A stretch of 64,000 nucleotides of DNA, from the NCBI GenBank assembly GCA_021029095.1, contig JAJOHG010000049.1:1-64000 (forward strand), written 5' to 3'. This DNA is from Phellopilus nigrolimitatus (taxonomy: Eukaryota > Basidiomycota > Agaricomycetes > Hymenochaetales > Hymenochaetaceae). The position numbers and the translations under genes are program-made. Positions 41,406 to 58,159 of this stretch are shown here, piece by piece (the first letter of the stretch is position 1; every line of letters begins with the position of its first letter). Below the pieces are notes generated by a model that was not told the DNA's origin, ran no database searches, and worked only from the letters and a program-made list of their open reading frames with translations.

Positions 41406-41413
41406 ATTTTGAT

Positions 41414-41634
41414 CACTTCAGGCACCCCCCTACAGAGGGCCTATTAGATATAACTCCCCCCAAGTGGGTTTGCCCTATTAGGTCCCCTTTTTCAGTGGTG
41501 TTCCCAAGGGGTGCGGGTCTTCCCAGAGGCCTGGATTTTCCCACTTGCAGGGATTTCCCAGACGTGTTTCAGGGTCTTTGGGAATATCCAGACATGGGTA
41601 ATCCCACAACTTGTCACAGGCTGTCAGGGGTCCT
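41414..41634 (+). repeat. left terminal inverted repeat of giant element
   Basis: 221 bp beginning CACTTCAGGCACCCCCCTAC and matching the right end inverted, with one difference (CACAGGC here, CACGGGC there). Homology stops after GGGGTCCT. Confidence 0.95.
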
Positions 41635-42060
41635 TGAGACAGGTATTTCCCAGTATAATAGGCCTAGGGTTGTGCCTGAAATACTACCTTTTCATGCCCA
41701 ATTGTCAATGAATGAGTCATCTATAATGTGCATAGTACTTCTTAAAGGGTTAAAATTCTAATGAAGTGAATGACCCTATGTCACTCAAACAGTTTAGAAC
41801 CAATTTCAATTCAATGTTGACCTGTATTGACTCATAAATCTATAAAATTTATACAATCAGCATTGATGTATATATATTGTACTGCAAAGCTCACAGCAGA
41901 GCAAATCTGAAATTCTTCCAATGTACACAGCTATTTTGTTCAGCATTTAAAGCTCTTTTGATTCACTTATAGCACATTATATGGTGGCATGACTGGAGCC
42001 CATAATGAGTTATACCTTGTAGTCTTCCATATAGAAAGCTTTCTGTATCTTATAGCGGTT

Positions 42061-42377
42061 TGAGAAATTGTAGGCGGATTGCATTTTCTCTCTACAGTAG
42101 GTTACTTAGAAACACAATATAGTTTTTTACTCCGAGACTGGTATCACTTCCTAACTTAGGTGTGAGCTAACCCATGCTTTGTGACTTGTGTACGACACAT
42201 TTTGGTTGTCGGTTTTGCATCTGCCTGGCAACAAGACTGACATGCATCACGCAAGTCACGCATAGGCCAGTTTTTTATCCAGATCAGGAAGTAATGTTAG
42301 CTTTAGAATAATAAACTATATTGTGTTTCTAAGCAACCTACTGTAGAGAGAAAATGCAATCTGCCTACAATTTCTCA
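42061..42377. mobile_element. hairpin MITE-like element inside the giant transposon
   Basis: Outer arms 42061-42124 and 42314-42377 (64 bp) are near-perfect inverted repeats, starting TGAGAAATTG and including GCATTTTCTCTCTACAGTAG. A weaker inner pairing (CATGC..GTGACTTG) lies in the loop. No coding capacity and no clear target duplication. Confidence 0.75.
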
Positions 42378-42424
42378 ACGTGCTGTAAAGGAGAATTTAT
42401 ATTATTGCCACACTCATGTCAGAT

Positions 42425-42665
42425 TTGTCATATTCCATGACTCAGGATATTCCCAAATGGGTATTCCCAAGATTTGGATATTCCCATCGTGGGTATTCCC
42501 AGACGTGGGACATCCCAACATGGGTATTCCCAAGATTTGGATATTCCCATCGTGGGTATTCCCAGACGTGGGACATCCCATGATGGATATTCCCAGACGT
42601 GGGTATTCCCAGACGTGGGTATTCCCAGACGTGGGTATTCCCAGACGTGGGTATTCCCAGACAAT
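42425..42665. repeat. left subterminal array of GGGTATTCCCA-type sites
   Basis: Repeats of the core TGGGTATTCCCA, spaced by AGACG, AAGATTTGGATATTCCCATCG or CATCCCA variants. Five near-identical GACGTGGGTATTCCCA units end the array. These short palindromes recall the GGG-CCC sites of the foldback element and are candidate transposase-binding sites. Confidence 0.88.
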
Positions 42666-42795
42666 GCCGAAGCAAAGTGGTGATCATTGATGTGCTTTTC
42701 TGTTTCCTTCTGCCACCCGGGTGACATCAGGAAACAGTCTTGACTTCAAAACATTCTTTTTCAATGACTGTCTTTATATATGAAAACCATAGTAG

Positions 42796-45700
42796 TTACA
42801 CATCACTACCTAAAGAATAGACTACATCACCAATGCGAACTCTCTTTGTCGGAGAAGATGAACCACGGAATGGATCATCTGTATCAGCATTGGCAAGTGG
42901 AAGAGATGCTTCATCAGCATAGTTTTGATGACCGAGTACATCAAAGGGGATTGTGCACGCATTATCAGATTCAATAGCCTCTGCAAGTTCCAAAAACTCG
43001 CCATTGTCTTCACTAGATTCATCATCGGATTCGGAATCTGTCAATAATGTTTGAGGAGGAAAGAAACGAGCTGCAGACTCAGAATTATGAAAGCATGCTA
43101 GCTCTTGGGTGGTCGGTCCCCATGATTCGGGGAGTAGCGCATTTGTAGACGGGATGGACTGAGTCCTACGGCGCCATTCATCATGGAGGGCAAGAAGCTC
43201 TTGCCTTCGCTTGTCAAGGGCGTACCGCAAACCAGATGTCGGCACTTAAATAATGAAAGTGGCTTAGTACAACTCTACAAGCGCAGACATTTTGATAGTA
43301 GACCTACGACAAGAACGGAATGCTAGCGCAGTCTGCGACCAAGTGTCCGCAAACCAATCTTGCATCGCAAATCTCTCTCTCTGCAATCGATGCAGCTCCT
43401 CACGACAGCGCGTAATCTCTAGAAAACTCTTTATACCTCTCCTGACGTTCTCGTCGCCCAGCCACCGCGGGACATCGCTGTCATCCTCATCATAAAGCCC
43501 GACATCCTGCCAAATAACATCATCGACATCCAAATCAAAGAGACCTTTGATGACGAGAGGTTCCGGACACCTCACACCCGGTGGCGCCTTTCCTTCTCTG
43601 GCCAGTCTACGCATAGTATCGCAAAGCCCGTTGTATTTCTTCGACAACTGGACAATGCCTGGGTCGCGGCGTTTCACCTGTGTCTCTATAAGATCTGCTT
43701 TCTTATGATCTAGCAGATGAATTAGCATAACGCACATGACGCAAAAAAAGAGAACTAACCGCTGGAGGTCGACTTTTGAGTACGATAAGGCCGCTCGTTG
43801 CTTTGAAGCTCAAATTTGCGGTTTTGAAGCTTGGATCGCAATCGAGATTTGACCGCACGAGCATTCATACGGATATTGATAAAGGTACTACTTCGGAATG
43901 ATGCGAGCTTTGCCTTGTCTCCTGTGCCGAGAGCGCGCTCTTTCGCGGTCACTTCCCTGATAAGGCGTGTGTACGCGGACTCCAGTTCCTTGATGGTTTT
44001 TTGAGTTTCGTCAGAGTCACCATCTTCATTCGCTATGTTCCGTTGAAGGGTGCGAAGGCGCTGACGGACAGCGTCGCTCCGAGAACGTAATGCGTAAATT
44101 TCTTCTACAGCATTACAAGCTGCAGACTTCGACTGTCCTGCACAGAAAAATCACTAAGTGTCACTACCAATGGTAAAGGAATGACTTACGTGGCAAAGCT
44201 TTAGTTTGTTCGTCAACTTGTTTCTCCCATTCCAAAGCGAGCTCACTTTCTGAAATAGCGCACTTCGCCCTTTCTTGTTCTGCACCATGAAGACGTCGGT
44301 AACATTGGCGAGTGCGATTAGATAACCATGCTCCGAGCTTGAAAAGATTACTGTTACTGAGGAACTGTACTTGCGTGTCGATCAAATGGAGTCGTTGGTA
44401 GAACTACCATGAACTTATGTCAGATTGATAACGGGTATTTGAATAAGATGCTACGCACGCCACTTATCCGAAGGGTAGGAATCAATTGTTTGATTGAGCT
44501 CCAGAAGCGTTCACAACCCTCGCCATCTGTAAGACCAAAACCCACGCATTTCCGAGGGTGATATACAAGTTGACAAGCCCACTGATGACCAAACGCGTGA
44601 AAGACAGCGAGCGCAAAAACCATCCTTTCTGCGAATTCCGGAAGGAAGTTCCATTTGACAATGCTTCGGTGCAGCTGGCAGCCTACATCGTAAAGCACCC
44701 CGACGACCGCGTCTGCTGGTAAGTTATTAGAGAGAGCTCGCAGCAGTGCGAGAGCATAATATTGTTTTTCGCCCGCCGACTGCATGTTCGCTAGCCAAAG
44801 CACGCGATCGTGGCGGCAAAGAAGTGCCATGAGACCCGTATCAGAGAAAAACCTTGTACTTGCTTTTTGCCGACGTTCATCTGCAGCTTTGAAAGATGCT
44901 TCGCATTCGTCCAGAATCTCATTTGAAAGCTTCAGCGACTTAAAGCTCGCATCCGTGACATTAGTCGGACCAGCATTACGAGCACGTTTGTTGCGCGCGG
45001 GCCTGAGCGCCTCAACCTCTCTCTCCATTGATCTTATTAACTCCTCATCCAGAAAAACCGTGTTCGGGTGTCGGCGGACCGGACCGCTATCAGTTTGTCC
45101 GCGCTTCTGCTGGAAGCAGGCGTCGAGACAGACTGCGACATCAAATCTACATGAATCAAAGCATCATGTTAATTGTTAGTGAATCAGTAAAACAAAAACG
45201 TCAAACGCACGTCGAACTGGGGTCATGCGCCCATGCGTTTCCCCCAAAACAAAGTGGACATCGGTTTTGAAGATACGAAGAGGGCCGATTCAGGTCTTCA
45301 AGAGCGGGATCGGTCCTTGAAGATTCGCCGTTTATATCTGCGTCCGTGTTCGCGGGTATGCCTGCGCAATAAGGTGCTTGAGTGACAATATTACGGATAC
45401 ATGTAGATGGCTTATACTTCTAGGTACGCCGTCTGCTGTGTTACGACTCGACGACAATCGGACAAACTCATCAATATAACGTTGCGAGGCGTCTCGCAAA
45501 GCACCAAACCACTGTAAACTCTTGCTGAATCGCTTTCGCAGAGAATCCTGAAGCGCAAAAGAAGATTTTTTTAGCAAGTATTGATTTATCCAGACACAAG
45601 TACGCACCGACGATTCGATCGTGTAACCGCGAGTCTTCAAAAAAACTTCTAGGGTGTTGCAAAATGCAGTTTGATTTGGCGGAGAGCGCAGAAAAAGTTC

Positions 45701-46428
45701 CGTACAGAACTCCAGCAAGTTCAAATCAACCGCAAGGGTGGGTAGGCATGGAGCACACCCAAACAAACCGCGATCAAGAAGTTGGTGAGGAGCGCTGCGG
45801 CAAGAGCAAATCTCAATAGAAATACTGCTGATATCTAGAGATATATCCATCAGTATACTGGCGAATGTACGAAGAAACCCCCACAAAGAATTAGCTCACT
45901 CTGAAAGTAGATGCAGACAATATGAATGATTTTCTTCTCACTATCGCAAGTACAGCTTGATGGCTCCGCGGGTGGAACGAGGTTGCGAAGAGACTTGGAT
46001 CGACGAAGAACGTCCAGGAAAGGTTCGATGAGAGATGGAAGGAGCTCTTTCCACCTCTCGCATTGTCTTATCCTTTTCCGTCTGTGTCTTGAAATCGCAG
46101 GGTCGAGGGGGATGCGATTTGCCGATACGAAAAGCGGGGTGTTACCCGTAATGGCTTGCTCACGTTCAATGTCATCCGCGGCGGCAAACAAATCATCCTT
46201 CGCCGCTGCCACCTCAGCAAAATTGGTATCGGCTCGTCCGACGTGTGCTCCAGGTGTTTGCACGAGGGTCCTATTCCCGGGAAGAAAAACCAAAGGTGGC
46301 GGAAATGGCTTCTCTGGGGAGGAGCTAGCGATATATTGAGAGGTCGACGGCCCCTCGACAAGGCCGCTAGATTTGTTCTTTGCAGCCTCGCTGTGTATTC
46401 TTTTAAGCGTCTTTTGACAAATTCTCAT
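42796..46428 (-). CDS. KDZ-family transposase with CxC cysteine cluster
   Basis: Multi-exon gene that looks intact. Exon 1 (46428 to about 45900) ends in CTCDSEKKIIH; after an intron, exon 2 begins at 45834 and continues ICSCRSAPHQLLDRGLFGCA, PTLAVDLNLLEF, FLKTRGYTIESS and DSLRKRFSKSLQWF. This is the cysteine-cluster (CxC) region that accompanies KDZ transposases. Next come RCPLCFGGNAWAHDPSS and VAVCLDACF, whose Asp is probably the first catalytic acid, then LMALLCRHDRVLW, VLYDVGCQLHRS and AVFHAFGHQWACQLVYHPRK, and FGLTDGEGCERFWSSIKQL: the conserved transposase core. The C-terminal part is helical and charged and ends GDVVYSLGSDV before a TAA at 42796-42798. It lies divergently from the Spt5-like gene across a repetitive spacer. 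Role: excision and insertion of this element. Confidence 0.92.
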
Positions 46429-48800
46429 GCTTGTAAAGTTTGATTAGCCGACAAGGGGATTTGAATAGGAGGACGAATCAACACACTTTAACTCGTCGGT
46501 CCCAAAGTTGTTGGCAGCGTGCTATTTTCGCGCTGGGATAAGTAATAAGAATTACATAAATCTGTTGATAAGGTTGCGAGATGTTCGCGCTCGCCACACG
46601 CCGATCTCCCGCCATCACTCCCTTGTGACTTCCGCATCATTGTGAATAAGCAACCGACGTTACATCACACTTTTGAGGTCTTTGCAGCATGCTCATTGCA
46701 GGCGCAGTTCAAACATACCTACCTAAAGACCATGCAGCTTTTCTTACGTGCCTTTTTTGCTGGCAATGTTCTGCAATCACTCATGTATTCAATTTATTGT
46801 ACAGACTTTAGAAAGATGTCTCATAAATGAGCGGCGATCCCAGTAACGAGTTGGTCGGTCATCATGGTCCTATGTACACAAGCTCCCAGACCCGACTTGC
46901 AAGACATTCAGTATCTGCGATCCATGTGTATCAAGTAACGCTGCGTACCAGCTCCCTGAGAAAGAAACTCGTTCCGAACTCAGGCTCCGTCGCCGATCAA
47001 GGAGAGGAGGGACGGCGCGGGCGTTGAGATGGCAAGCGCATGGAGGGAGGACGGCGAGCGCGTAGAGGAGACGGCGAGCAAGTTGAGAAAACGATCGGGC
47101 GCGGGGGCGTCGAGGAGACGGCGAGCACGCTCGGAAGAGAGGATGGACAAGGGGGCGTCGAGGAGACGGCGAGCACGCTCGGAAGAGAGGGCGGCCGAGG
47201 GGTCGTTGAGGAGACGGCGAGCCAGAAGGGAAGAGAGGGCGGGCGCGAGGGTAGGCGCGGGGTCGTTGAGGAGACGGCGAGCCAGTAGGGAAGAGAGGGC
47301 GGAGCGTGAGCGTTGAGGAGAGGGCGAGGGGCCATTGAGACGGCGAGCGCGTAGAAGGGTGACGGCGAGCGCATAGAGGGGGGACGGCGAGCGCGTAGTG
47401 GAAGAAGGCGAGCGCGTAGTGGAAGACGGCGAGCGCGTAGTGGAAGATGGCGAGCGCGTAGTGGAAGACCGCGAGCGCGTAGTGGGGGGGCGGCGAGCGC
47501 GAGAAGGAAGACGGTGATCGTGGCGAGTGCGCGAAGAAGACGGCGAGGGCATTGAAGAAATGGTGAGCTCGCTGTGGAAGACGACGAGGGCGGTGAGGAA
47601 GACGGTGAGGGCGGTGTAAAGAAGAGAAGGAGATGGTAGTGGTTGGAGGAAGAGATGGAAAGGTTGTCCAAAAGCGGAATCGGACCTTGATGACTAGCAA
47701 TCCTGATTCGGAAGGATCAGCTGACTTCCCGAGCGCAAGGTCTGTTTATTCCCACACGTGACCGGGAAGTCAGCTAATCCTTCCGAATCAGGATTGCTAG
47801 TCATCAAGGTCCGATTCCGCTTTTGGACAACCTTTCCATCTCTTCCTCCAACCACTACCATCTCCTTCTCTTCTTTACACCGCCCTCACCGTCTTCCTCA
47901 TCGCCCTCGTCGTCTTCCTCATCGCCTCATCGTCTTCCTGATCGCCCTCACTGTCTTCCTGATCGCCCTCACCGTCGCCCTCCTCGCCGCCGCTACTCCC
48001 TGGTCGCCGCCGCCGCCTTCTACTCCCTCGCCGACCTCGTTGTCTCCCTTCTCACCGCCGCCGCCGCCATCCTCCTCACCGCCGCCGCCGCCATCCTCCT
48101 TGCCGCCGCCGCCTCCGCCTCCTCCCTGGTCGCCTTTGCTGTTGCTGCTGCTGCTGCCGCTGCCGCCGCCGCCGCCTACTCCCTCATCGCCCTCGCCGCG
48201 CCCTCGGTTTCCATCACCGCGTCCCCTGGCTCGCTGCCCCCTTCAGCGCCCTCGCCACGCTTGCCGCCTCCATTGCCACGCTCTTCCTTGCCTCCCTCAC
48301 CGTGCCCTTTGCCCTCGGTCTCCATCACCGTACCCCCTTGTCTCCCTCGCCGCCTCCTTCCTCGACTCTCCCTTTTTTTTCATTCTGTATCATCCACGGG
48401 CACTGTTATTTTTTGGGTTTCGTCATTGCTGTTGAGGATTTTGCTTGTCGTATTGCTTTTATCTTGTTTTCGTATTGTTTTCGTATTGCTTTCGTAGTGC
48501 TTTCGTATTGCTTTCGTATTGCTTTCGTTTTCCCTTTACTGTTTTCGTCTTGTTGTCATCCTGCTATCCTTACCTCGCTATCGTATACACACTGCTTTGT
48601 TAGCCTAGGTCGTTAGATAAGTAGCACCGCACCAACTCGCAAAAAAAAAAGTTATTCAGAAAGGGAAAGGAAAAAAAAGTAAAGAGGACTTTCTGTAGAT
48701 TAGCAGAAAGAAAGAAAGGGAAAAAAATAACGAGGTAAGCGCTTCGAAGACGAGAGGGGCAGGTAATATGAGATAGGTTGCTTGCTAACAATAAATATAG
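46429..48800. other. divergent spacer with strand-asymmetric repeats and a palindrome
   Basis: Separates the transposase gene (minus) from the Spt5-like gene (plus). About 47029-47600 is purine-rich on the plus strand (GACGGCGAGCGCGTAG-type units). About 47870-48350 is pyrimidine-rich (GCCGCCGCC and CTCACCGTCTTCC units). An inverted repeat joins them. Long open frames here are low-complexity Ser/Pro/Arg artefacts. The spacer probably contains both promoters. Confidence 0.7.
47577..47917. repeat. palindrome, 154-bp arms with 33-bp loop
   Basis: Arms 47577-47730 and 47764-47917 pair as inverted repeats (paired positions sum to 95494) with only a few mismatches. The inner ends are CTGACTTCCC and GGGAAGTCAG; the arms contain GGTTGTCCAAAAGCGGAATC and its complement. 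Confidence 0.88.
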
Positions 48801-51255
48801 ATGTCGAAACGATTGCGAGTTATTGGCGTCGAGGCACTGTTGGACGTTGAAGCCACTGTTGCGGACGTCGACGAAGAGGATTCGGAAGACGAAGAAGACG
48901 AAGGTAATAATTTGGTTCTTAGGCTAAAACGCAGAAAGTTAATTGGAACTATCTAGTGAATAACTTCATCGACGATGATGACGGAGAGGAGACCTCTTCG
49001 CGCATCTACGCTTCGTCTACGCTGGGCACGGACACTCGTTCGGTCGGAGACTTTGACGAGGAGACTTCGGCAAGGAGAATCGAAGAGCGCAGCAGAAGAG
49101 AGAGGGAAGTGGAAAGGAGTCGGGTTTCAACTAAATTGCATATGTGGATGATCCGCGTTCCGGTACGTTGTGGCTCAAAGATTGGGCAGAGTACTTACAC
49201 ATCTTTCATAGGAAAGACAAGAGTCGCCAAATGCGGATCGTCTCAATAAACGTCTGTTGGAACCCTCTCACGCATTTTCCGTCCCATCTCTATGCTCGCG
49301 GATTTATGTCTTAGCGCCGAACTCAGCAATCATTCGCGCTGCGTGTCAGAATCTCGCTGGGCTGGAGCGGGCACCATTCCTTTCAGTTCCGATTGAGGAG
49401 CACCATGTAGTACGCAAACTTCGAGATGAGGTCGACGCGTTGCCAGCTTTTGAGGTCGGCGACTGGGTTTCTCTTCGACGAGGCACTTATAAAGGTGACC
49501 TCGCGAGAGTTCGTGCCGTCTCGGGTACGAGCGACTCACTCATTGTGGCCGTGGTGCCTCGCATTGGAAAGAAAGATAAGAAACAAACGTCTCGCCCGGT
49601 ACCTTCGCTTTTTAATTTTGACAGAATTTCTGAACTATGTGAGGGCGAAACCATTAAGAAAGTCACCGATACCGAGTTCCGTTTCAGACGGCGGTTGTTT
49701 AGAAATGGACTATGCGAGTTCAAAGTCCCGGGTATCCACTTTGTAAAAAAGGCTCGACCTACGCTTTGTGATCTAGGTGCATTTGCACTGCGAGAAAGTA
49801 ATCTCGCCTCGCTAGAGATAGGAGAACCTTTCTTGCGTTGCGGAGATACAGTCCGCATGATTTCCGGACCTCAGATCACTCTGAGCGGCGTCGTAGGTAG
49901 TATCGAGGACGAACAAGTTCTCGTTCATGACATCCTCGACTGGACAGGAACGCTGAAATATAGCGGACTGTGGGTCCCTCGCCATGAAGTGCGACGTATT
50001 CTGAAGCCCGGAGACCACGTCAGAACGAGAGTCATCGAGCCACCAATCGAAGGAATGATAATAACGGTCGACGATGACGAACTTACCCTCTGCGAGGCGG
50101 ACTTTAGTCGTCCGGTTTGTCTGAATTTTAAAACTTCTCATTTCTGTTCTAACTACTATCATTCAGGTAACTTTTCGTACCAGGTGGGTCGAGACGTATG
50201 ACCCCGACTTTAGGATGAAAAATCTTCAACCATCCGCGCCGATAGAGGGTCCTCCTCGACACCACGACCACTACAGCGGTTTGCGCATCTACGTCAGACA
50301 AGATAAATATCTAAAAGGCACTTACGGTTACGTTCTGTATACTCACCCGACGAAGAGAATCGCTCACATTTCGCGCGACGGCATAATCGGATCCTCCGTG
50401 TTCGTCGTCGAATTGAAGAACTTGATCGCAGTGTAAGTTCTATTTATTACTGCGTATCGAACACTTTCTTACTTGAATTACAGGAAGGCGGTCTCGTGTC
50501 TGGACGGTAAGTTTCCTCTTACCGAAACCGAGCGAGAGCGGTACATCGAGAAATTTCGTGTGGTACCCGGACCCTCGCTACCCGGACCCTCCGGCGCTAC
50601 GCGTTCAACGACCCCGCCGCCTGGGAGCAGCGAGCTCCCTGTTGACGGGGAAGCGGCAGCGTGGGTGGTTGGCGAGTTGGACGGGACAGAAGCTCGTGAT
50701 TCGGCGGCCGATGGCGCGATAACGGTTCTCCCACCTCCTTCAGGTACGCATCATCTGGCAACGGCGAACGTGTTCCATTTTATTCATGATTCTTCTCTTT
50801 TTCTCCAAGATTTTTCTGGCCGTGGCATGTGGCTCTTCGCGCCCTCTATCCAGGCGCGCTTTCCCGGGCACAAGGTGCACTTTACTCGCCTATCGTCGCC
50901 CTCGCGCCCTACTTTTTTGGAAGAGGGGACTAAGGACAGCTTCGATCATACGCGATGCGTCGTTGAGCACAACCGATGCCGTGTACGCGTCGTCTTGCAG
51001 ACACCCGCGTCGACGGTCCGATCTGAAGATGTAGATGTTCACGATTTAGGCCCGAAGCTCCCCAAAAAAGGGGGCACGGCATTGGTGATCAAGGGGAATG
51101 CGGAAAATGTCGGGAAAATCGTCAGGGTGACTGGCTTCGTGAAAGCCGACAATGCCCTTAAGTCTGTTTGGCTCGTGGATCTGGATGGCACGCACTGGAA
51201 CGTGCCGGAGCCGGTAGGGAGCATAACGCGCATTGAAGCAACGGCAGAGTCATAG
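48801..51255 (+). CDS. Spt5-like NGN/KOW protein carried by the transposon
   Basis: Resembles the transcription elongation factor Spt5, which binds RNA polymerase II. Starts MSKRLRVIGVEALLDV, followed by the acidic stretch DVDEEDSEDEEDE. An NGN-like domain begins at MWMIRVP and continues SRIYVLAPNSAIIRAACQNL to LSVPIEEHHVVRKL. A first KOW follows, FEVGDWVSLRRGTYKGDLAR, then VVPRIGKKDKK and LFNFDRI, both Spt5-like. More KOW-type segments are CGDTVRMISGPQITLSGVVG, LKPGDHVRTRV and, at the C-terminus, GGTALVIKGNAENVGKIVRV. The stop TAG is at 51253-51255. It is diverged from the cellular protein and lies 2.4 kb from the transposase gene on the opposite strand. I infer a cargo gene that may recruit polymerase or protect transposon transcription; no host copy is in the window. 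Confidence 0.82.
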
Positions 51256-51651
51256 TCGTGTACATAGTGTAATACGATGTGAATACATGCTGCTTTCTGC
51301 GTGTCGGAATCGGTGAGTCTATTTACCGGCGTCAAGATCCATCAAGCGAACTTGTTTCATCACGGAAAAAAAGGCGCGTATGCAATTTAACGCGAACTTA
51401 ATATACTGACTATTTCTCATTTAGGTTGCAACTCGCATGTAGTACGTTCTTTGAGAAAAGTATCGCTTATGTCTCGCTTATTTCGGCTGACTTTGGACCG
51501 TCGCATTGGCTCCCGTCTGAATTCGGTCCGCAAGTAAGTTTCCCAGCCACATATCGCTTTGAAATCGTCAGAGTCTAACTTCAGTGTTTCTTCCCTTCAC
51601 TGTTTTATTTGCTTTGAGAACATTGTCGTTTGGATCGTTACGAAAATAAAC
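51256..51651. other. spacer between the two plus-strand transposon genes
   Basis: About 400 bp downstream of the Spt5-like stop and upstream of the proposed start of the next gene. No recognisable motif. An upstream non-coding exon of the next gene is possible. Confidence 0.4.
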
Positions 51652-54600
51652 ATGAGTGACTCGAATGCAACGCCAGGTATGTCTGTAAAACCTCTTCGCA
51701 TTTCGATTATGCATTGACTTGAAATTCCTCACAGTTGTGCTGGCTGATGAGCAAGCTAATACGAGAAAGAAGGGCAAACAGGCTGTTCAAGTAAGTTTCT
51801 TCACAAATTGTATACGAAGCTATGCTCACTGAGCCCGACAAGGAAACCAACGATACGGTTTACCAAGGCCTCACCACGAGATCCAAGAGCGGAAATGCTA
51901 CAGAGAGAAGGATATACGTTGTGTGTGATGTTCTTATGTCTGCGTCAGTAAGATACAATTTGCTAATTTTTCGTTTTCTCTAGGAGAAGAAACGCCGGGC
52001 ACCAGCGGCCTCTGCCAAGAAAGCTGAGCAGAGCGTACTCGAGAAGGCCGCGCGCGCTGAAGAGGCTAAGGCCGCGCGCGTTGAAAAGGCTAAGGCCACG
52101 CGCGCTGAAAAGGCCGCGCGCGCTGAAGAGGCTAAGGCCGCGCGCGCTGAGAAAGCTAAGGCCACGCGCACTGAGAAGGCCGCGCGTGAAGAGGCCGAAC
52201 GCGCTGAGCAAGTTGCACGCGAGAAGGCAGCGTGCGCTGAGCAAGCCGCGCTCGAGAAGGCCGCACGCGATGGCTTGGCTGCGCGCAAGAAGGCCCTCGA
52301 CGATGATTTGGCATTGCGCAAAGAGGCCTCCGCTCGTGAACAAGCTGCTCGCGATGCGGCCAACAAACCACATGATAGACCAAGTGTAAATCAATTCTCA
52401 ATGTCCTCCAACTAAGCTAATCCACGTTTATTGCTAGGTTCGACAGAGCACACTCGATCTTGAGCAGGATCCATTCAACTTACGACACCGCAGACAGTAC
52501 TATCGACTGTCTAGCGGCAAAACGCCGAAGACTCCCCCTCTGCCTGCTCGCATGCAAGCGGTCGTCAAGTCAGGTGTTGTGACAAGGACGACCCCTCCAC
52601 ATGTGCCAGCTCGTGTACCGACGGCGACGAGGCCCTCCACTTCTGCTGTTCAAACATCTGTTGCACCGTCTGGGCGGAAGTCACCACCTGCTCTTGATGT
52701 ACCGTCTTCAGCGAATAGCGAGGAAGCATCGAGCACTGTACTGTCCAGCGCGCTTCAAGCTAGGCTAGAAACTGCGTTTGCGGCTGATCCAGACGCAATA
52801 TTGTCTCTACTTCGCAATCACGGATTCGATCTTCACGTTCACAACTCGCAGTCCGATGGTAAGTGACTTTCGCTATCTATTGTACAAGAACTTCAATAAT
52901 GAACCTTGACTCTCAAGGACATGCTCGTCTCGACGCTGATTCAAGCAATGGAGGCGATGATTATGCAGATGACCAGACTACTCCCATCCCCGCTCGCACC
53001 CGTTCCCTAGCTCCCAAAGACGTAGGCGCTGACTCTCCCGAAGGTGCTGTCGAGATACCCGAGGGACGTCATTCGTCCGGACACATTAGCGCCGAGGATG
53101 AGGATGAGGATGAAGGTGGTAATGCGTCATCCGATGACTATGCGACTACTGCAGATAAGAGGCAGATGGTCTCGCAGGAGGAAATGGACGAAGAGCACGA
53201 TCTTGAGACTTGGAGTGATGCTGTCAATAGTAGTGACGACGACGTGCCCGTCAAGAAGAAGCCTACGCGCAAGTCTGGCAGAGTACCAAAGCCCAAGGCC
53301 GTCGTGACAACAACTGCCTCTGGTGAGGCAGCAGCAGACTCCGAGGATCTCGAGGACGGGATGAATGCGAAACGGGGTCCGTTGTCGGCTGATGCGAAGA
53401 CCGACTGCGACAAAGCATACCGTGATTTCCACGCAGCACTCCGTAAGATCGGCATCAAGAACGACAAGAAAGTTGACTCGCTTTTGAAGCATCTTGGCTT
53501 CGTATCAAAGGAGACGCGCGATTCGAACCCATACAACGTTTGGCAAAGCTGGTACTACGTCCACCACCCGAGGCCCGAAGACAGTGAGTGAATCCTGTTT
53601 TATTAGCTATTTCTGCAAGGCTGACATCTTCGCATTCAAGTGAGTCCCGCATCGTACAAAATGGAGGTTACAGCGGCCTATCGAAAGATCCACCCAGAGG
53701 ACGACGATCGCAGCCCGGAGCAAGTAAAAGAGCTCTTTCGCGAGCAGTATGAATGGCGCAAGTCTATTGAGCAGTCGCACGTTGCGACAACCAGCAATCT
53801 CAAGGACGTACTCCGTCCTGGGCAGGCAGAGTTCAAACGTTTTGTATGTCTGTCGCGCTGTGATTGTTCCTGCATGATTCTCATGTCATCTCCTTTAGGC
53901 TCAGCGCCAGTATATGGAGTCGCAGACGGTTTATGTCGCACTTGCGGTCAACCTTTCGAACAATCCGCAAGCTAAACTTGTCTCTGGTTTCCTTGCTGGG
54001 TCCGAGGTCGCTGAATTGGCGTTCAAGAACGACAATATATTCTGGTCTAAGATGAGCGACGACCTAGAGACCGCGATCAGGTGGGTGTGACGTCTCGCGC
54101 TGGCATTTAAAGCTCTAACTCCCTTCATAGGTTTGCTGATTTGCGCATGCGCGGTATTACAAGGGACGAAGACGTACCCCTGTTGAAGAAGTTGTTTTCG
54201 AAGGGCAAGACAGGGGGGAAGGGCGAGGATCGTGACCATCGACGTGCCCTATTCTCTGAGAACCTTAACGCATCGGCTGGTACGCATTTCAGCACTAGTC
54301 TGATGTTATATTTTCTCAATATTTTTACAATAGCGTGTGTATTTGATGCAAGGGAAAAGGCAGATCCGTCGGGGAAGAAATTACCAAAGTCCCAGCGTAC
54401 CGTCAGTTTCACGAAGTTCTATGACTGGCTGATTGAGCAGCAGCTTGGTCTCGTCGGTGTACCAGATGTTGAATTTGCATGGGGTGATCTTGATCCGACT
54501 ATCAGAAATATCACGGGGCCACTTTTGAAGGCAACTACGGACGTACTCTTAAGGGAACAGTGGACTTTACGAAGTGGGGGGGATATTTCGGAGCTTAAAG

Positions 54601-55475
54601 GGAAAGTGATGAGATTTTGGGATATGAGTTCACGTACGTGTTTGTTCTCGGTATCGAGAACACTTGTTGATTGAACAATTTTAGTTTATAAGAACTACGA
54701 CGTCAACGCAATTGGAGGCGTTGCCATTGTAAAGTCTGTCAGCGGCCGACCCCTGCTCACTTTGAGTCGCTGCGACGCATATCAGAAGTTGCTGGCCGGC
54801 CCAAGTGACACACACAACAATGTCACGATGCCTTGCAACTCTTCTAACTTGGTTTCTGCAGAAAGTCAAGTGATACCCGCCGCTCGCGCTATTCAGCCTA
54901 GTGCCGCTCCGTCGACCACTGACCCGGTGCATGTCTACCGGCCTTCTGCTGCCTCAACTGGCCAAGAGATAGGGCCACTTCTGCATCACGCATCTGCACA
55001 GCGTGCTGTCTCGGTTGCTCCACCTATACAGACCTCGCCGCCGCTGCCACTTCCACTTTCTACTATACCAACCTTCGTGCCTCATGTCGCAGCACCAGGT
55101 GCTAGTCAGCGCACTCGTCACTTCGAGGATGATGGAGAAGGGCCACCTGTTAAGAGGCCGCGCGTCGGGGAACCCTCTGAACCCCAGTTTGATGTGCAAG
55201 ATGGCATGATCCGGTACGAGTGGGTGTATCCGGATGGGTATGGTTTTTATTCTATCCCGGGGCCGCCGCCGCATCGCGGCGAACGTAGACGTACTGATGA
55301 TCATTGGCGGATTGTTGACCCGGTGACAAAGGACATGGTTCCTATCCCTCCTGGCTACACAGCATCTAGCGTTCACATCTGGGGAGAGGGCTCGCTCTCA
55401 AATGATCCGGATATTAATGATGGGCAGTCCTTTAACCCTGCTATTGAGCACAGATACGTGTACGGATATGATTAA
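51652..55475 (+). CDS. large unrecognised transposon-borne protein, coiled-coil N-terminus
   Basis: Proposed start MSDSNATP, then VVLADEQANTRKKGKQ after an intron. A long Ala/Lys/Glu repeat (AEKAARAEEAKAARAEKA-like, from about 51990 to 52370) should form a coiled coil. Next are a Ser/Thr/Pro-rich linker, an acidic stretch with EDEDEDEGGNASSDD, and a basic patch KKKPTRKSGRVPKPK. A conserved-looking helical core follows: DKAYRDFHAALRKIGIKND, SNPYNVWQSWYYVHHP, MEVTAAYRKIHPEDDD, SKMSDDLETAIRFADLRMRG, VSFTKFYDWLIEQQLGLVG. A Pro-rich tail ends EHRYVYGYD, TAA at 55473-55475. The core vaguely resembles a helical DNA-binding domain, but I cannot assign a family. Lying inside the giant element on the same strand as the Spt5-like gene suggests a role with the element. 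No stop or frameshift seen. Confidence 0.75.
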
Positions 55476-56280
55476 TTAGTTTAGTGTCAACCGTCTCCGT
55501 AGTCAGTTGCTAGTGTTCGGGTTTTGGTGAATGCGCAGAAAATGTCCGGGCTTACAGACGTACTGGGTGGATTAGTAAGCAACTTGCATACAGGCTGGTC
55601 TTTTTGTACTTTGCTATCTACTGCATTTGTCTATGGGCCACGGGATAAACAGGCTCTCTGTATGTGATTGCAGGCGACTAAGATCTTTCTATTTCTAACA
55701 ACTAGTATCATTACAACTCTGCGTACATACAGGCGCCAAAAAGTGTTTGCGCACCCCCCAAAAAGGAAAGCGATTCGCATCCGCCATCCTGGGCACTCTT
55801 TCTCCTTAGTTCCTTTGTATATACAACATGTTTTCTTGCTATATGCATAACACAACTTTTCCGGCATCAAGTGTTTTCTGTGGATGTATTTAGCGTGTGT
55901 AACTGGACGCGACAGCCAAGCGACAGCGTGACGCACGCGTCTCGCAGGCAGATGAGAATCACCTTCCCTTTTTGGGGGTGCGCAAACACTTTTTGGCGCC
56001 ACCTGTACAGAAAAGACTTTGTCCCCCACAAAAAAGGAAGTTAGTTCCCGCCTGCATAGCAAACAATGCCACGTCATTAGTGTGTTTTCAAAGCTAACGG
56101 AAAATGGTATTTCTGTTAGCCTGAGTAACGAGCACCGGGCTTGTCTGCTGCCGAGCTGAGGAAGGCTGGTTAACACGTGAACTTAACTAATGTCAACATC
56201 CATTCTTGCAAATGATTCTTTAGCTAGTATGTATTATGATTTGTTATTTAAATAATTTGAAGACATATATCATATTGGAA
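55476..56280. other. 3' flank of the large gene, contains a small MITE
   Basis: No gene recognised. It holds the TA-flanked element at 55730-56005. From about 56160 the sequence becomes AT-rich and CpG-poor up to the SINE copies. Confidence 0.5.
55730..56005. mobile_element. Tc1/mariner-type MITE, 276 bp
   Basis: Ends CAGGCGCCAAAAAGTGTTTG and its inverted partner CAAACACTTTTTGGCGCCAC, ending CCTG, flanked by TA on each side (55728-55729 and 56006-56007). The inverted repeats run about 37 bp through GCGCACCCCC. TA duplication and small size fit a mariner-derived MITE. It encodes no transposase. Confidence 0.85.
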
Positions 56281-56301
56281 TTCTCCACTTCACTGGCTTC
56301 C

Positions 56302-56500
56302 ATGGTTCAGTGGCTAATCCGGCTTACTAACTCTTGTACAAGGAGTTGTGCAAGAGGTCTTAAGTTCGATTCTCGTCTGAACCCTGTAAATCAGTTGACC
56401 TTTTTGTAAATGTTTGGTTTTTTTATATTATTTTTTTATAAAGTGGGCTGGGTTATTGGAGCCCGAGCTGAAAGTGATTGATCTTACAGCCATTTATTAA
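56302..56500 (+). mobile_element. tRNA-derived SINE, copy 1
   Basis: The 5' part is tRNA-like: GGTTCAG and CTGAACC could pair as a 7-bp acceptor stem, TGGTTCAGTGG fits an A box and AGTTCGATTC fits a B box. The anticodon and T stems are too poor for a functional tRNA. A tRNA-unrelated tail with AGTGGGCTGGGTTATTGGAG and GCCCGAGCTGAAAG follows and is shared with copy 2. Confidence 0.72.
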
Positions 56501-56651
56501 CTGAAGGAGTTATGCCAGAACAAAATAGCCTGAATATGACACCTGACGCTAAATTGTTGAGCCATGTACACATGCCAACTAACATATTTTCACATTCTTA
56601 TAAGACAGATTGTGAGTGATGTGTAGTTGATGTATTGCTTGCAACTGGTTT

Positions 56652-56805
56652 TGTGTGGTTTAGTGGCAAATCAGGCTTGCAAACTTTTGTACAGTCCAAA
56701 GGAGTTCTAAGTTTGGTTTGTTCCTTTGCCCCTTATCCTTTTTGTAAACATTGTTTTTTTTAGAAAGTGGGCTGAATTGTTCGAGCCCAAGTTGAAAGAG
56801 TTTGA
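56652..56805 (+). mobile_element. tRNA-derived SINE, copy 2 (decayed)
   Basis: Matches copy 1 in order: GGTTTAGTGGCAAATCAGGC for GGTTCAGTGGCTAATCCGGC, then ACTTTTGTACA, then the tail AGTGGGCTGAATTGTTCGAG and GCCCAAGTTGAAAG. Many changes are C to T or G to A, and the B box is lost. Confidence 0.65.
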
Positions 56806-56826
56806 ACCCATTGATTTGTGAAGCTT

Positions 56827-57243
56827 GGGAGATCCCAAATGTGGGAGATCCCAACTACGGAAGATCCCACAGGTGGGAGATCCCAACTACGGAAGATCCC
56901 AACTACGGAAGATCCCACAGGTGGGAGATCCCAACTACGGAAGATCCCAAATGTGGGAGATCCCACAGGTGGGAGATCCCAACTACGGAAGATCCCACAG
57001 GTGGGAGATCCCAACTACGGAAGATCCCACAGGTGGGAGATCCCAACTACGGAAGATCCCACAGGTGGGAGATCCCAACTACGGAAGATCCCAAATGTGG
57101 GAGATCCCACAGGTGGGAGATCCCAACTACGGAAGATCCCAAATGTGGGAGATCCCACAGGTGGGAGATCCCAAATGTGGGAGATCCCACAGGTGGGAGA
57201 TCCCAAAGGTGGGAGATCCCAAATGTGTGAGATCCCAAATGCC
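56827..57243. repeat. right subterminal array of GGGAGATCCCA-type sites
   Basis: About 18-bp alternating units TGGGAGATCCCAACTACG, GAAGATCCCACAGG and GGGAGATCCCAAATG over 417 bp. The palindromic core GGGAGATCCC parallels GGGTATTCCC at the left end of the element and GGGACATCCC in the foldback element. Confidence 0.9.
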
Positions 57244-57294
57244 TACCTGACAATTGGAAGTTCCATTCTCTAAGTGAAGGCCTAGAACTGTGCC

Positions 57295-57590
57295 ACACAG
57301 CTAATTCATAGTAAGCTCAGTCAACGTGCAGTGTAGCAAATGTCTGTCAGTTGCCTAATAATCTAATACAAAGTAAGCTGTTATAATGAATGGGTGATTG
57401 TAAAATAAGTTTGGCCAATTGTTGGAGAGCTCACCTCAGTCATTGCATGGTGTAGCAAACATTTGAGGTAGGTAAAATATTAAAAGATGTCTTTATACAA
57501 GGCATTTTCAGGCTCTTGGCAGGCTGTTTTCGTACTAAAGGGTTGAAGAACACAATAAAGATCATAAGTCTGATTAACATCAATATTTAA
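57295..57590 (-). repeat. CpG-decayed LTR fragment related to the copia LTR
   Basis: Colinear with the inner part of the copia LTRs (4187-4460): AGTAAGCTCAGTC, AATACAAAGTAAGCT, GAGAGCTCACCTCAGTC, TTTGAGGTAGG, TATACAAGGCATTTTCAGGC and ACAATAAAGA all have counterparts. Where the intact LTR has GCGCGGTAATGCGAACG, this copy has GCATGGTGTAGCAAACA, mostly CpG to TpG or CpA changes. No internal copia sequence is attached, so it is a solo LTR or fragment. Confidence 0.75.
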
Positions 57591-57930
57591 AGTAAACTGG
57601 GATTGCAGGGTGGGGCAAGGGTGAAATGAGTACCTACTGAGTGGCTAATAGTGATGTAAGTAGCCTTTGGCTTCTCAAGCTAAGGTGCTGCAAGCACTCA
57701 GCCCAAGATATGAACACTCAGTGTCAAGCTACTTTCTGGTCTGCAAGTACACATACCAACACCCTATGTCTAGTTTAGAGAAAGCACCCTGTACTTAAAC
57801 AAAAAAGTGGCATATACAACATATGTATGAATATATATATGGTGATCCAAAATGATCAGAGGTATCATATCCTGGCTGCATCTGACAATATTCATACAAT
57901 TAGGTCCAAATATCATGGAATTTCTGTATC

Positions 57931-58151
57931 AGGACCCCTGACAGCCCGTGACAAGTTGTGGGATTACCCATGTCTGGATATTCCCAAAGACCCTGAAACA
58001 CGTCTGGGAAATCCCTGCAAGTGGGAAAATCCAGGCCTCTGGGAAGACCCGCACCCCTTGGGAACACCACTGAAAAAGGGGACCTAATAGGGCAAACCCA
58101 CTTGGGGGGAGTTATATCTAATAGGCCCTCTGTAGGGGGGTGCCTGAAGTG
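57931..58151 (-). repeat. right terminal inverted repeat of giant element
   Basis: 221 bp, the inverted partner of the left end, finishing in CCTGAAGTG directly before the ATTTTGAT duplication at 58152-58159. Confidence 0.95.
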
Positions 58152-58159
58152 ATTTTGAT

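Follow-up and report, generated by a model that had tools for sequence, protein, structure and literature searches.

A KDZ transposon carrying an Spt5 paralogue in the basidiomycete Phellopilus nigrolimitatus

Results

An Spt5 relative carried by a KDZ transposon

We analysed a stretch of 64,000 nucleotides (hereafter the window) from the genome of the hymenochaetoid wood-decay fungus Phellopilus nigrolimitatus. Positions 41414-58151 of this window are almost certainly a KDZ cargo transposon that carries a paralogue of the transcription elongation factor Spt5, which normally accompanies RNA polymerase II. A first-pass annotation, made from the window alone, had proposed a single KDZ element with an elongation-factor-like cargo. 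This proposal is now supported by the ends of the element, by exact empty sites, by a near-identical copy and by the same genes in four diverged elements. It can also be refined: on sequence grounds, the cargo is more than KOW-like and is not a one-off within this genome. Genome searches were performed on the P. nigrolimitatus genome itself (56.4 Mb, 635 contigs), in which the contig of the window element is labelled C434 and the other contigs are designated in the same way.

The splicing of the Spt5-like gene, including its last intron, is backed by the NCBI model of a relative on C168 (P0001, 708 amino acids [aa]), which is short of about 25 residues present in a further relative (P0002). 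In the encoded protein, a KOW domain (PF00467) scored above its cut-off (26.3 bits vs. 22.3). When the PDB sequences were searched with this protein, 17 distinct sequences were retrieved up to E 0.1, all of them Spt5/NusG proteins or Spt5-like proteins of RNA-directed DNA methylation; the best match (E 3.9e-15) covered residues 110-408. A profile-profile comparison of four cargo proteins with 11 plant and algal Spt5 proteins gave a continuous alignment over residues 12-398 (probability 99.5, E 3.3e-22). We also compared a structural model of relative P0002 with the PDB using Foldseek. The best match was chain W of an RNA polymerase II elongation complex containing Spt4/5 (E 2.8e-19), and a KOW2-KOW3 crystal structure was matched with a template modelling (TM) score of 0.70 by target length. 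Comparing the Spt5-like model with viral structures was uninformative: the TM score to the query did not exceed 0.17 among the matches listed, most of which were proteins without a name or characterisation, while a few were phage RfaH/NusG or KOW entries. A fortuitous KOW motif was ruled out by the continuous Spt5 alignment and by introns in common with the host gene.

The Spt5-like protein is 727 aa long, vs. about 1,030 aa for the plant Spt5 proteins compared. At the threshold of the repeat finder, no tandem array was detected in the gene. The host SPT5 region contains TPNPY/TPAWN repeats. Since relative P0001 has a short PSLPG repeat in its C-terminal region, a degenerate remnant of the C-terminal repeat is possible. 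Judged by homology, the cargo protein is a nearly whole Spt5 relative, with a probable acidic N-terminus, a divergent NGN domain and KOW domains, in which no C-terminal repeat array was found. A protein with 41-42% identity to it (P0003, EW145_g8108) is encoded on a 3.6-kb contig of Phellinidium pouzarii, i.e. in another hymenochaetoid genus.

The host SPT5 is a separate gene, located on C101, with about 28-31% identity to the cargo protein. Reading the host splice sites by hand, we found that three introns coincide in position and phase between the two genes (the comparison covered the SPT5 of this host only). The first (phase 1) lies in the acidic stretch, where the alignment is of low complexity, and matches to within one residue. 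The second (phase 0) lies in the NGN domain (host WQVRVR/PGKERD, cargo WMIRVP/ERQES, the slash marking the intron) and the third (phase 0) in the KOW region (host SMQE/VSVF, cargo FSRP/VTFR). These common introns argue that an intron-bearing SPT5 was captured as DNA and not via mRNA. A genome search with the main exon gave seven matches (eight candidates scored), corresponding to the host SPT5 and to six elements of this KDZ family. Both ends, with target site duplications (TSDs), were paired for five of these six elements, while only the right end of the element on C13 was located.

The transposase gene, annotated earlier as an unbroken KDZ gene, indeed encodes 1,032 aa without a stop once its eight GT-AG introns are removed by hand. 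Its KDZ catalytic domain (PF18758) is strongly matched (E 2.1e-60, 204.6 bits vs. a cut-off of 26.6), and CxC1 is present, only just (27.5 bits vs. 26.9). The domain match was computed; certain residues are taken to be the KDZ catalytic motifs. By these domains and its ends, the window element is assigned to the KDZ superfamily, and it would be autonomous, i.e. moved by its own transposase.

Boundaries and mobility of the element

The element opens with CACTTCAGGCAC and closes with GTGCCTGAAGTG, with ATTTTGAT at either side. The first-pass annotation had described 221-bp terminal inverted repeats (TIRs) with one mismatch and a perfect 8-bp direct repeat on both sides, and our comparison agrees on each point. 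The mismatch lies at repeat position 205 (A in the left repeat, G in the right one when reverse complemented); another copy, on C567, also has G at this position.

The same annotation had suggested looking for other full copies, for copies with the same gene set and for empty sites with breakpoints at 41413/58152. All three were found. A genome search with the 221-bp repeat yielded 40 matching places (40 of 45 candidates were scored); a plasmid collection searched with the TIR gave no match. A second full copy is located at C567:81942-98933, flanked by CTAATTGA duplications. It differs from the window copy at 33 of 16,737 aligned bases, 20 of which fall within one tandem array, and in length at three places: by 189 bases in a subterminal array, by 1 base outside the modelled exons and by 66 bases in the third gene. 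This last difference, a multiple of three, lies in a coiled-coil repeat. Moreover, the flanks of the window copy are part of a locally repeated segment, and two paralogues of this segment (on C623 and on C434 near 65.5 kb) cross the site uninterrupted. Across these empty sites, 210 of 238 bases are identical, and the counterpart of the two ATTTTGAT copies of the window is a single ATTTCGAT. Their breakpoints are exactly 41413/58152; both sites are paralogues in the same genome, not alleles. From the paralogous empty sites and the near-identical copy, the window element is to all appearances a recently active DNA transposon of the KDZ superfamily.

Two artefactual origins were considered and rejected. 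An assembly chimera was ruled out because the second copy, with a different TSD, sits on another contig. Two unrelated nested insertions were ruled out by the ends, the TSD, the empty sites and the common three-gene set.

A family of related elements

Both ends could be paired for 16 elements, and a perfect TSD of 7 or 8 bp, together with the TIRs as in other members of the KDZ superfamily, was found in 15 of them: 8 bp in three (the window element, C567 and C137) and 7 bp in 12. With respect to the Kyakuja, Dileera and Zisupton sub-lineages, TSD length is thus mixed across the family. Eight further repeat matches, of the 40, correspond to isolated ends or to fragments. Among the large elements, three relatives with paired ends carry the Spt5-like gene, at C168:366907-399569 (32.7 kb), C555:304757-334694 (29.9 kb) and C312:218486-246480 (28.0 kb); the C13 element has the same genes. 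The largest element, at C90:37567-105467 (67.9 kb), has ends of this type and is flanked by a perfect 7-bp duplication, CCTGCTC. It carries the transposase and the end of the third gene; the parts read (about 30 of its 68 kb) also include a second KDZ gene and an open reading frame that looks gag-like. On C625, a fragment unites a piece of the transposase with the end of the third gene and the right repeat.

Ten smaller elements (7.0-8.7 kb) have ends in common with the family (71-89% identity), and neither a transposase nor an Spt5-like match was found in them by the genome searches. Elements of this kind have TSDs too, so they have moved, presumably in trans. Frames from the small elements on C137, C168 and C122 include a stretch that we take to resemble a bZIP basic region, reminiscent of a captured gene fragment.

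Some flanks are shared between elements. The left flank of C578 and the right flank of C283 form a pair (ATACATAG), the right flank of C578 is found again at C566, and two ends on C179 have a common 16-base left flank. These swaps or duplications suggest recombination between copies or assembly effects.

Gene order, selection and exchange between families

The transposase, the Spt5-like gene and the third gene were found together, with order and orientation kept, in all six Spt5-bearing elements found (C434, C567, C13, C168, C312 and C555). In each of them, the transposase occupies one end and is transcribed away from the Spt5-like and third genes, which are consecutive.

To compare the genes between element families, we estimated the ratio of nonsynonymous to synonymous substitutions (dN/dS) with C13 and C555, after dropping codons with stops or alignment gaps. 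The codons compared were, respectively, 822 and 1,018 of 1,033 for the transposase, 727 and 651 of 728 for the Spt5-like gene, and 1,084 and 1,063 of 1,100 for the third gene, for which we used our own exon 3, nine residues longer than that of NCBI. The dN/dS values were 0.15 and 0.16 for the transposase (with a dS of about 1, near saturation for this simple method), 0.47 and 0.46 for the Spt5-like gene (in each comparison, none of 1,000 bootstraps reached 1) and 0.40 and 0.36 for the third gene. Judging from these pairwise ratios, below 1 for all three genes, the related elements have kept the Spt5-like copy under selection. No in-frame stop was found in the Spt5-like gene in the lifted comparisons, nor in the transposase when compared with C13.

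When element families are compared, the transposase has a dS of about 1.0 and the third gene one of 0.74, but the Spt5-like gene only 0.21-0.23, with 0.30 for its first four exons. The highest identity to C555 (0.94-0.99) is reached between 50.7 and 51.5 kb, a stretch that spans an intron and continues beyond the stop codon. Window positions 50481-51480 comprise the 3' part of the Spt5-like gene with its last intron, and sequence downstream of the stop codon; here, identity to C555 is 91-99%, vs. 78-88% in neighbouring parts. The low dS of the Spt5-like gene could reflect either a segment exchanged between families after their divergence or constraint on synonymous sites; for the stretch of high identity, the alternatives are likewise such an exchange or a constrained DNA or RNA element.

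Subterminal arrays and intergenic palindrome

The motif TGGGN2-4CCCA occurs 28 times in the window element, always within its first 2 kb and last 1.7 kb and never between, vs. 18 times in the other 47.2 kb of the window. In C555, it occurs 27 times in the left 3 kb and 31 times in the right 2.2 kb, and not once in the 10.2 kb of interior read; in C13, 23 times in the right 3 kb and nowhere in the other 17.5 kb. The scan covered two of the ten small elements, C137 and C122, which carry 14 and 16 motifs per end and none inside. This distribution suggests that the end palindromes are transposase-binding arrays. Their presence at the ends of small elements would explain how elements without a transposase match could move.

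Another palindrome separates the divergent transposase and Spt5-like genes and would provide both with the same upstream sequence. It is also present in C567 (162-bp arms) and in C13 (69-bp arms), and it is possibly a bidirectional promoter.

Third gene and other features

The first-pass annotation had counted two genes besides the transposase; these are the Spt5-like gene and the third gene (Table 1). The NCBI model of the latter (P0017) encodes 1,090 aa, and ours differs from it by nine residues at one splice site: the end of exon 3 is set at 51920 by the NCBI protein, while our model extended to 51947. Pfam gave no match to the third-gene protein up to E 0.5 and the PDB none up to E 5; among 7,992 candidates scored in a protein search, nothing else matched it. 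Protein searches scored the roughly 8,000 candidates with the most words in common with the query, and further relatives may exist. A single-sequence structural model of low confidence (mean predicted local distance difference test [pLDDT] 42.4) has a long helix at residues 65-179 and a helical middle. The third gene was found in 8 of 8 elements of this KDZ clade, only partially in C90 and C625.

Two further inverted repeats were noticed inside the transposon. Downstream of the third gene, positions 55732-56000 hold a short element-like insertion with 54-nt inverted repeats starting GGCGCCAAAAAGTG, for which no clear target duplication was seen. Just inside the left end, positions 42050-42388 form an inverted repeat with 103-nt arms (84% complementary), possibly a small nested insertion.

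Table 1. Coordinates of the features of the window element
Feature	Position	Strand	Details
TIR-flanked KDZ transposon	41414-58151		16.7 kb
TSD, left copy	41406..41413		ATTTTGAT; single ATTTCGAT in empty-site paralogues
Left TIR	41414..41634	+	221 bp, starts CACTTCAGGCAC; repeat comparison, genome search
Left subterminal array	42451..42662	.	TGGGTATTCCCA / TGGGACATCCCA palindromes; putative transposase-binding region
KDZ transposase gene	42796..46428	-	9 exons, 1,032 aa, CxC1-type cysteine cluster and KDZ domain; hand-splicing, Pfam
Palindrome between divergent transposase and Spt5-like genes	47570..47924	.	162-bp arms, 98%, 31-nt spacer
Spt5-like gene	48801..51255	+	727 aa; exons 48801-48903, 48957-49162, 49212-50114, 50167-50432, 50484-50743, 50810-51255; splicing, homology
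Third gene (orphan protein)	51652..55475	+	exons 51652-51676, 51735-51790, 51843-51920, 51984-52385, 52438-52858, 52918-53583, 53641-53843, 53899-54080, 54131-54279, 54334-54633, 54685-55475
Right subterminal array	56826..57241	.	TGGGAGATCCCA palindromes; putative transposase-binding region
Right TIR	57931..58151	-	221 bp; repeat comparison
TSD, right copy	58152..58159		ATTTTGAT

Discussion

Several observations weigh against our reading of the element and its cargo. Concerning the protein, the Pfam NGN domain scored below its cut-off (13.3 bits vs. 22.4), as did the acidic Spt5_N (15.4 vs. 24.2), KOW1 (20.1 vs. 22) and KOW2_Spt5. A genome-wide search with NGN had the host SPT5 on C101 as its sole match and missed the cargo gene. 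The model of relative P0002 has a mean pLDDT of 55.8 and a whole-chain TM score near 0.2, and the alignment behind it included ordinary Spt5 proteins. Concerning the genes, the dN/dS of 0.46 indicates a weaker constraint on the Spt5-like gene than on the transposase (0.15). The lifted comparisons contain in-frame stops (two in the third gene in both the C13 and the C555 comparison, two in the transposase in the C555 comparison), and a TGA stop lies inside the transposase match of C168. In C13, the reading frame of the Spt5-like gene is uninterrupted; four of its five lifted introns have GT-AG, and the first reads AC-AG in the alignment. Other non-GT-AG sites affect the third transposase intron in C13 and several introns of the third gene. 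Concerning the elements, C578 has two ends without a TSD, and no Spt5-like match was found in C90 by the genome search (this copy, of which about 30 of 68 kb were read, is heavily interrupted), so the Spt5-like gene may be dispensable.

Further observations concern the same points. The Spt5_N region lies within the profile-profile alignment, and KOW1 is listed for three relatives of the Spt5-like protein. The presence of an NGN domain is indicated by the continuous profile-profile alignment and by the NGN intron in common with the host gene, despite the sub-threshold Pfam score. Misplaced exon ends can explain the lifted stops and the non-GT-AG sites.

What the Spt5-like protein does for the element can be proposed as follows. 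The transposase would bind the subterminal palindromes and the TIRs, including those of smaller elements without a transposase match, and would cut at CACTTC/GAAGTG. Produced together with the transposase from a putative common divergent promoter, the Spt5-like protein would join RNA polymerase II on the element, probably with the host Spt4. There, it would sustain elongation through genes that are long, rich in introns and prone to silencing by the host. Devoid of a C-terminal repeat, it would be out of reach of the kinases, and of the silencing or processing factors, that work via this repeat. The protein would then be the eukaryotic equivalent of RfaH, the plasmid-borne ActX and similar NusG paralogues of bacteria. 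Such a self-serving role in elongation or against silencing is plausible, and we advance it with some reserve. As a whole, the explanation that we consider best, and somewhat probable, blends the identity of the cargo transposon with this role. An exchange between families of a module worth keeping would fit the self-serving role, without proving it. The complete scenario is more tentative: a eukaryotic DNA transposon lineage with a dedicated Spt5, captured as genomic DNA from a fungal SPT5, stripped of its C-terminal repeat, placed under a palindromic divergent promoter and used for transcription against silencing, as a counterpart of RfaH/ActX.

The principal rival is a decoy or saboteur that competes with the host Spt5 for Spt4 or polymerase II, or titrates silencing partners, and thereby weakens co-transcriptional silencing of transposons generally, instead of assisting elongation on the element. 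The very divergent NGN domain, the length below that of ordinary Spt5 and the C-terminal repeat array that was not found are all in its favour, and extra Spt5 proteins of Paramecium work in small-RNA pathways according to PMC8934623. The cargo protein, however, has kept its NGN-to-KOW layout and its C-terminal part, beyond the needs of a minimal decoy, and we regard this rival as unlikely, though serious. A simple passenger, i.e. a host gene trapped between the ends and of no use to the element, would agree with the lack of a detectable Spt5-like gene in C90 and with a dN/dS above that of the transposase. It is improbable given the same place and orientation in six elements, diverged families included, a dN/dS below 1 in all bootstraps of both comparisons and a relative in another genus, Phellinidium.

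Fungal elements with genes useful to their host are known, and the Spt5-like gene could be a cargo of this type, spread by the transposon in the manner of Starships to the gain of the fungus. Yet the only genomic match outside the element family is the housekeeping SPT5, and an elongation factor has no obvious niche benefit, which makes this a very improbable reading. A role in transposition itself, with the Spt5-like protein tethering the transposase to the transcribing polymerase and steering insertion, would suit the divergent arrangement of the two genes around a common palindrome. Nevertheless, elements with related ends and neither gene detected also have TSDs, and we give this reading just as little credence.

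A selected Spt5 on a transposon family suggests that transcription elongation is a conflict point between transposons and host silencing, beyond the methylation targeted by TET/JBP cargo. This idea can be tested: a single defined protein and a single host are involved, near-identical copies exist, and some related elements carry the gene while others do not. Furthermore, the range of KDZ cargo is widened, and concrete ends and subterminal motifs are available for locating more elements.

The first-pass annotation did not know of the combination of KDZ and Spt5 as described before, and we found no transposon-borne Spt5 in the open-licence papers searched, judged by title and opening of the abstract where papers were listed. 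Starships are large fungal cargo elements with a tyrosine recombinase captain. The window element is likewise a large fungal cargo element; it differs in its TSDs and in having a KDZ transposase and TIRs instead of a captain, for which no Pfam match was found in the three gene products. Plant SPT5L/KTF1 is an Spt5 paralogue. In Paramecium, Spt5m is described as an extra Spt5, and both Paramecium variants as devoid of a C-terminal repeat; the same paper presents more than one SPT4 or SPT5 gene as unusual among eukaryotes (PMC8934623). SPT5L/KTF1 and Spt5m are host genes acting in genome defence or rearrangement, whereas the window Spt5 is encoded by a transposon.

Among KDZ elements, KDZ1-KDZ3 of Cryptococcus neoformans are reported as mobile, about 9-11 kb long, with TIRs of 139-241 bp, TSDs of 8 bp (KDZ1) or 4-8 bp (KDZ2/3) and a transposase combining KDZ and CxC1 (PMC12810828). 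The window element is also a basidiomycete KDZ element with long TIRs and KDZ + CxC1, but it reaches 16.7 kb and has two extra genes; the main text of PMC12810828 does not mention Spt5. Kyakuja and Zisupton elements carrying TET/JBP are described in Agaricomycetes, where this chromatin gene is thought to counter silencing (Kojima 2025, PMC12730594). The likeness lies in a KDZ transposon with a captured gene thought to have such an effect. Kyakuja is characterised there by 7-bp TSDs and no TIRs, whereas the window family has TSDs of 7 or 8 bp, TIRs (221 bp in the window element) and an Spt5-like cargo; up to E 0.5, Pfam matched no TET/JBP domain in any of the three products. Finally, RfaH, ActX and TraB are presented as specialised NusG paralogues, ActX and TraB being plasmid-borne and RfaH countering the silencing of long acquired operons (PMC6391919). 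Like them, the window protein is a dedicated paralogue of the universal NusG/Spt5 factor. In contrast to these bacterial proteins, it is of the eukaryotic Spt5 type, with several KOW domains, and lies inside a TIR transposon, where it would by analogy play a comparable role.

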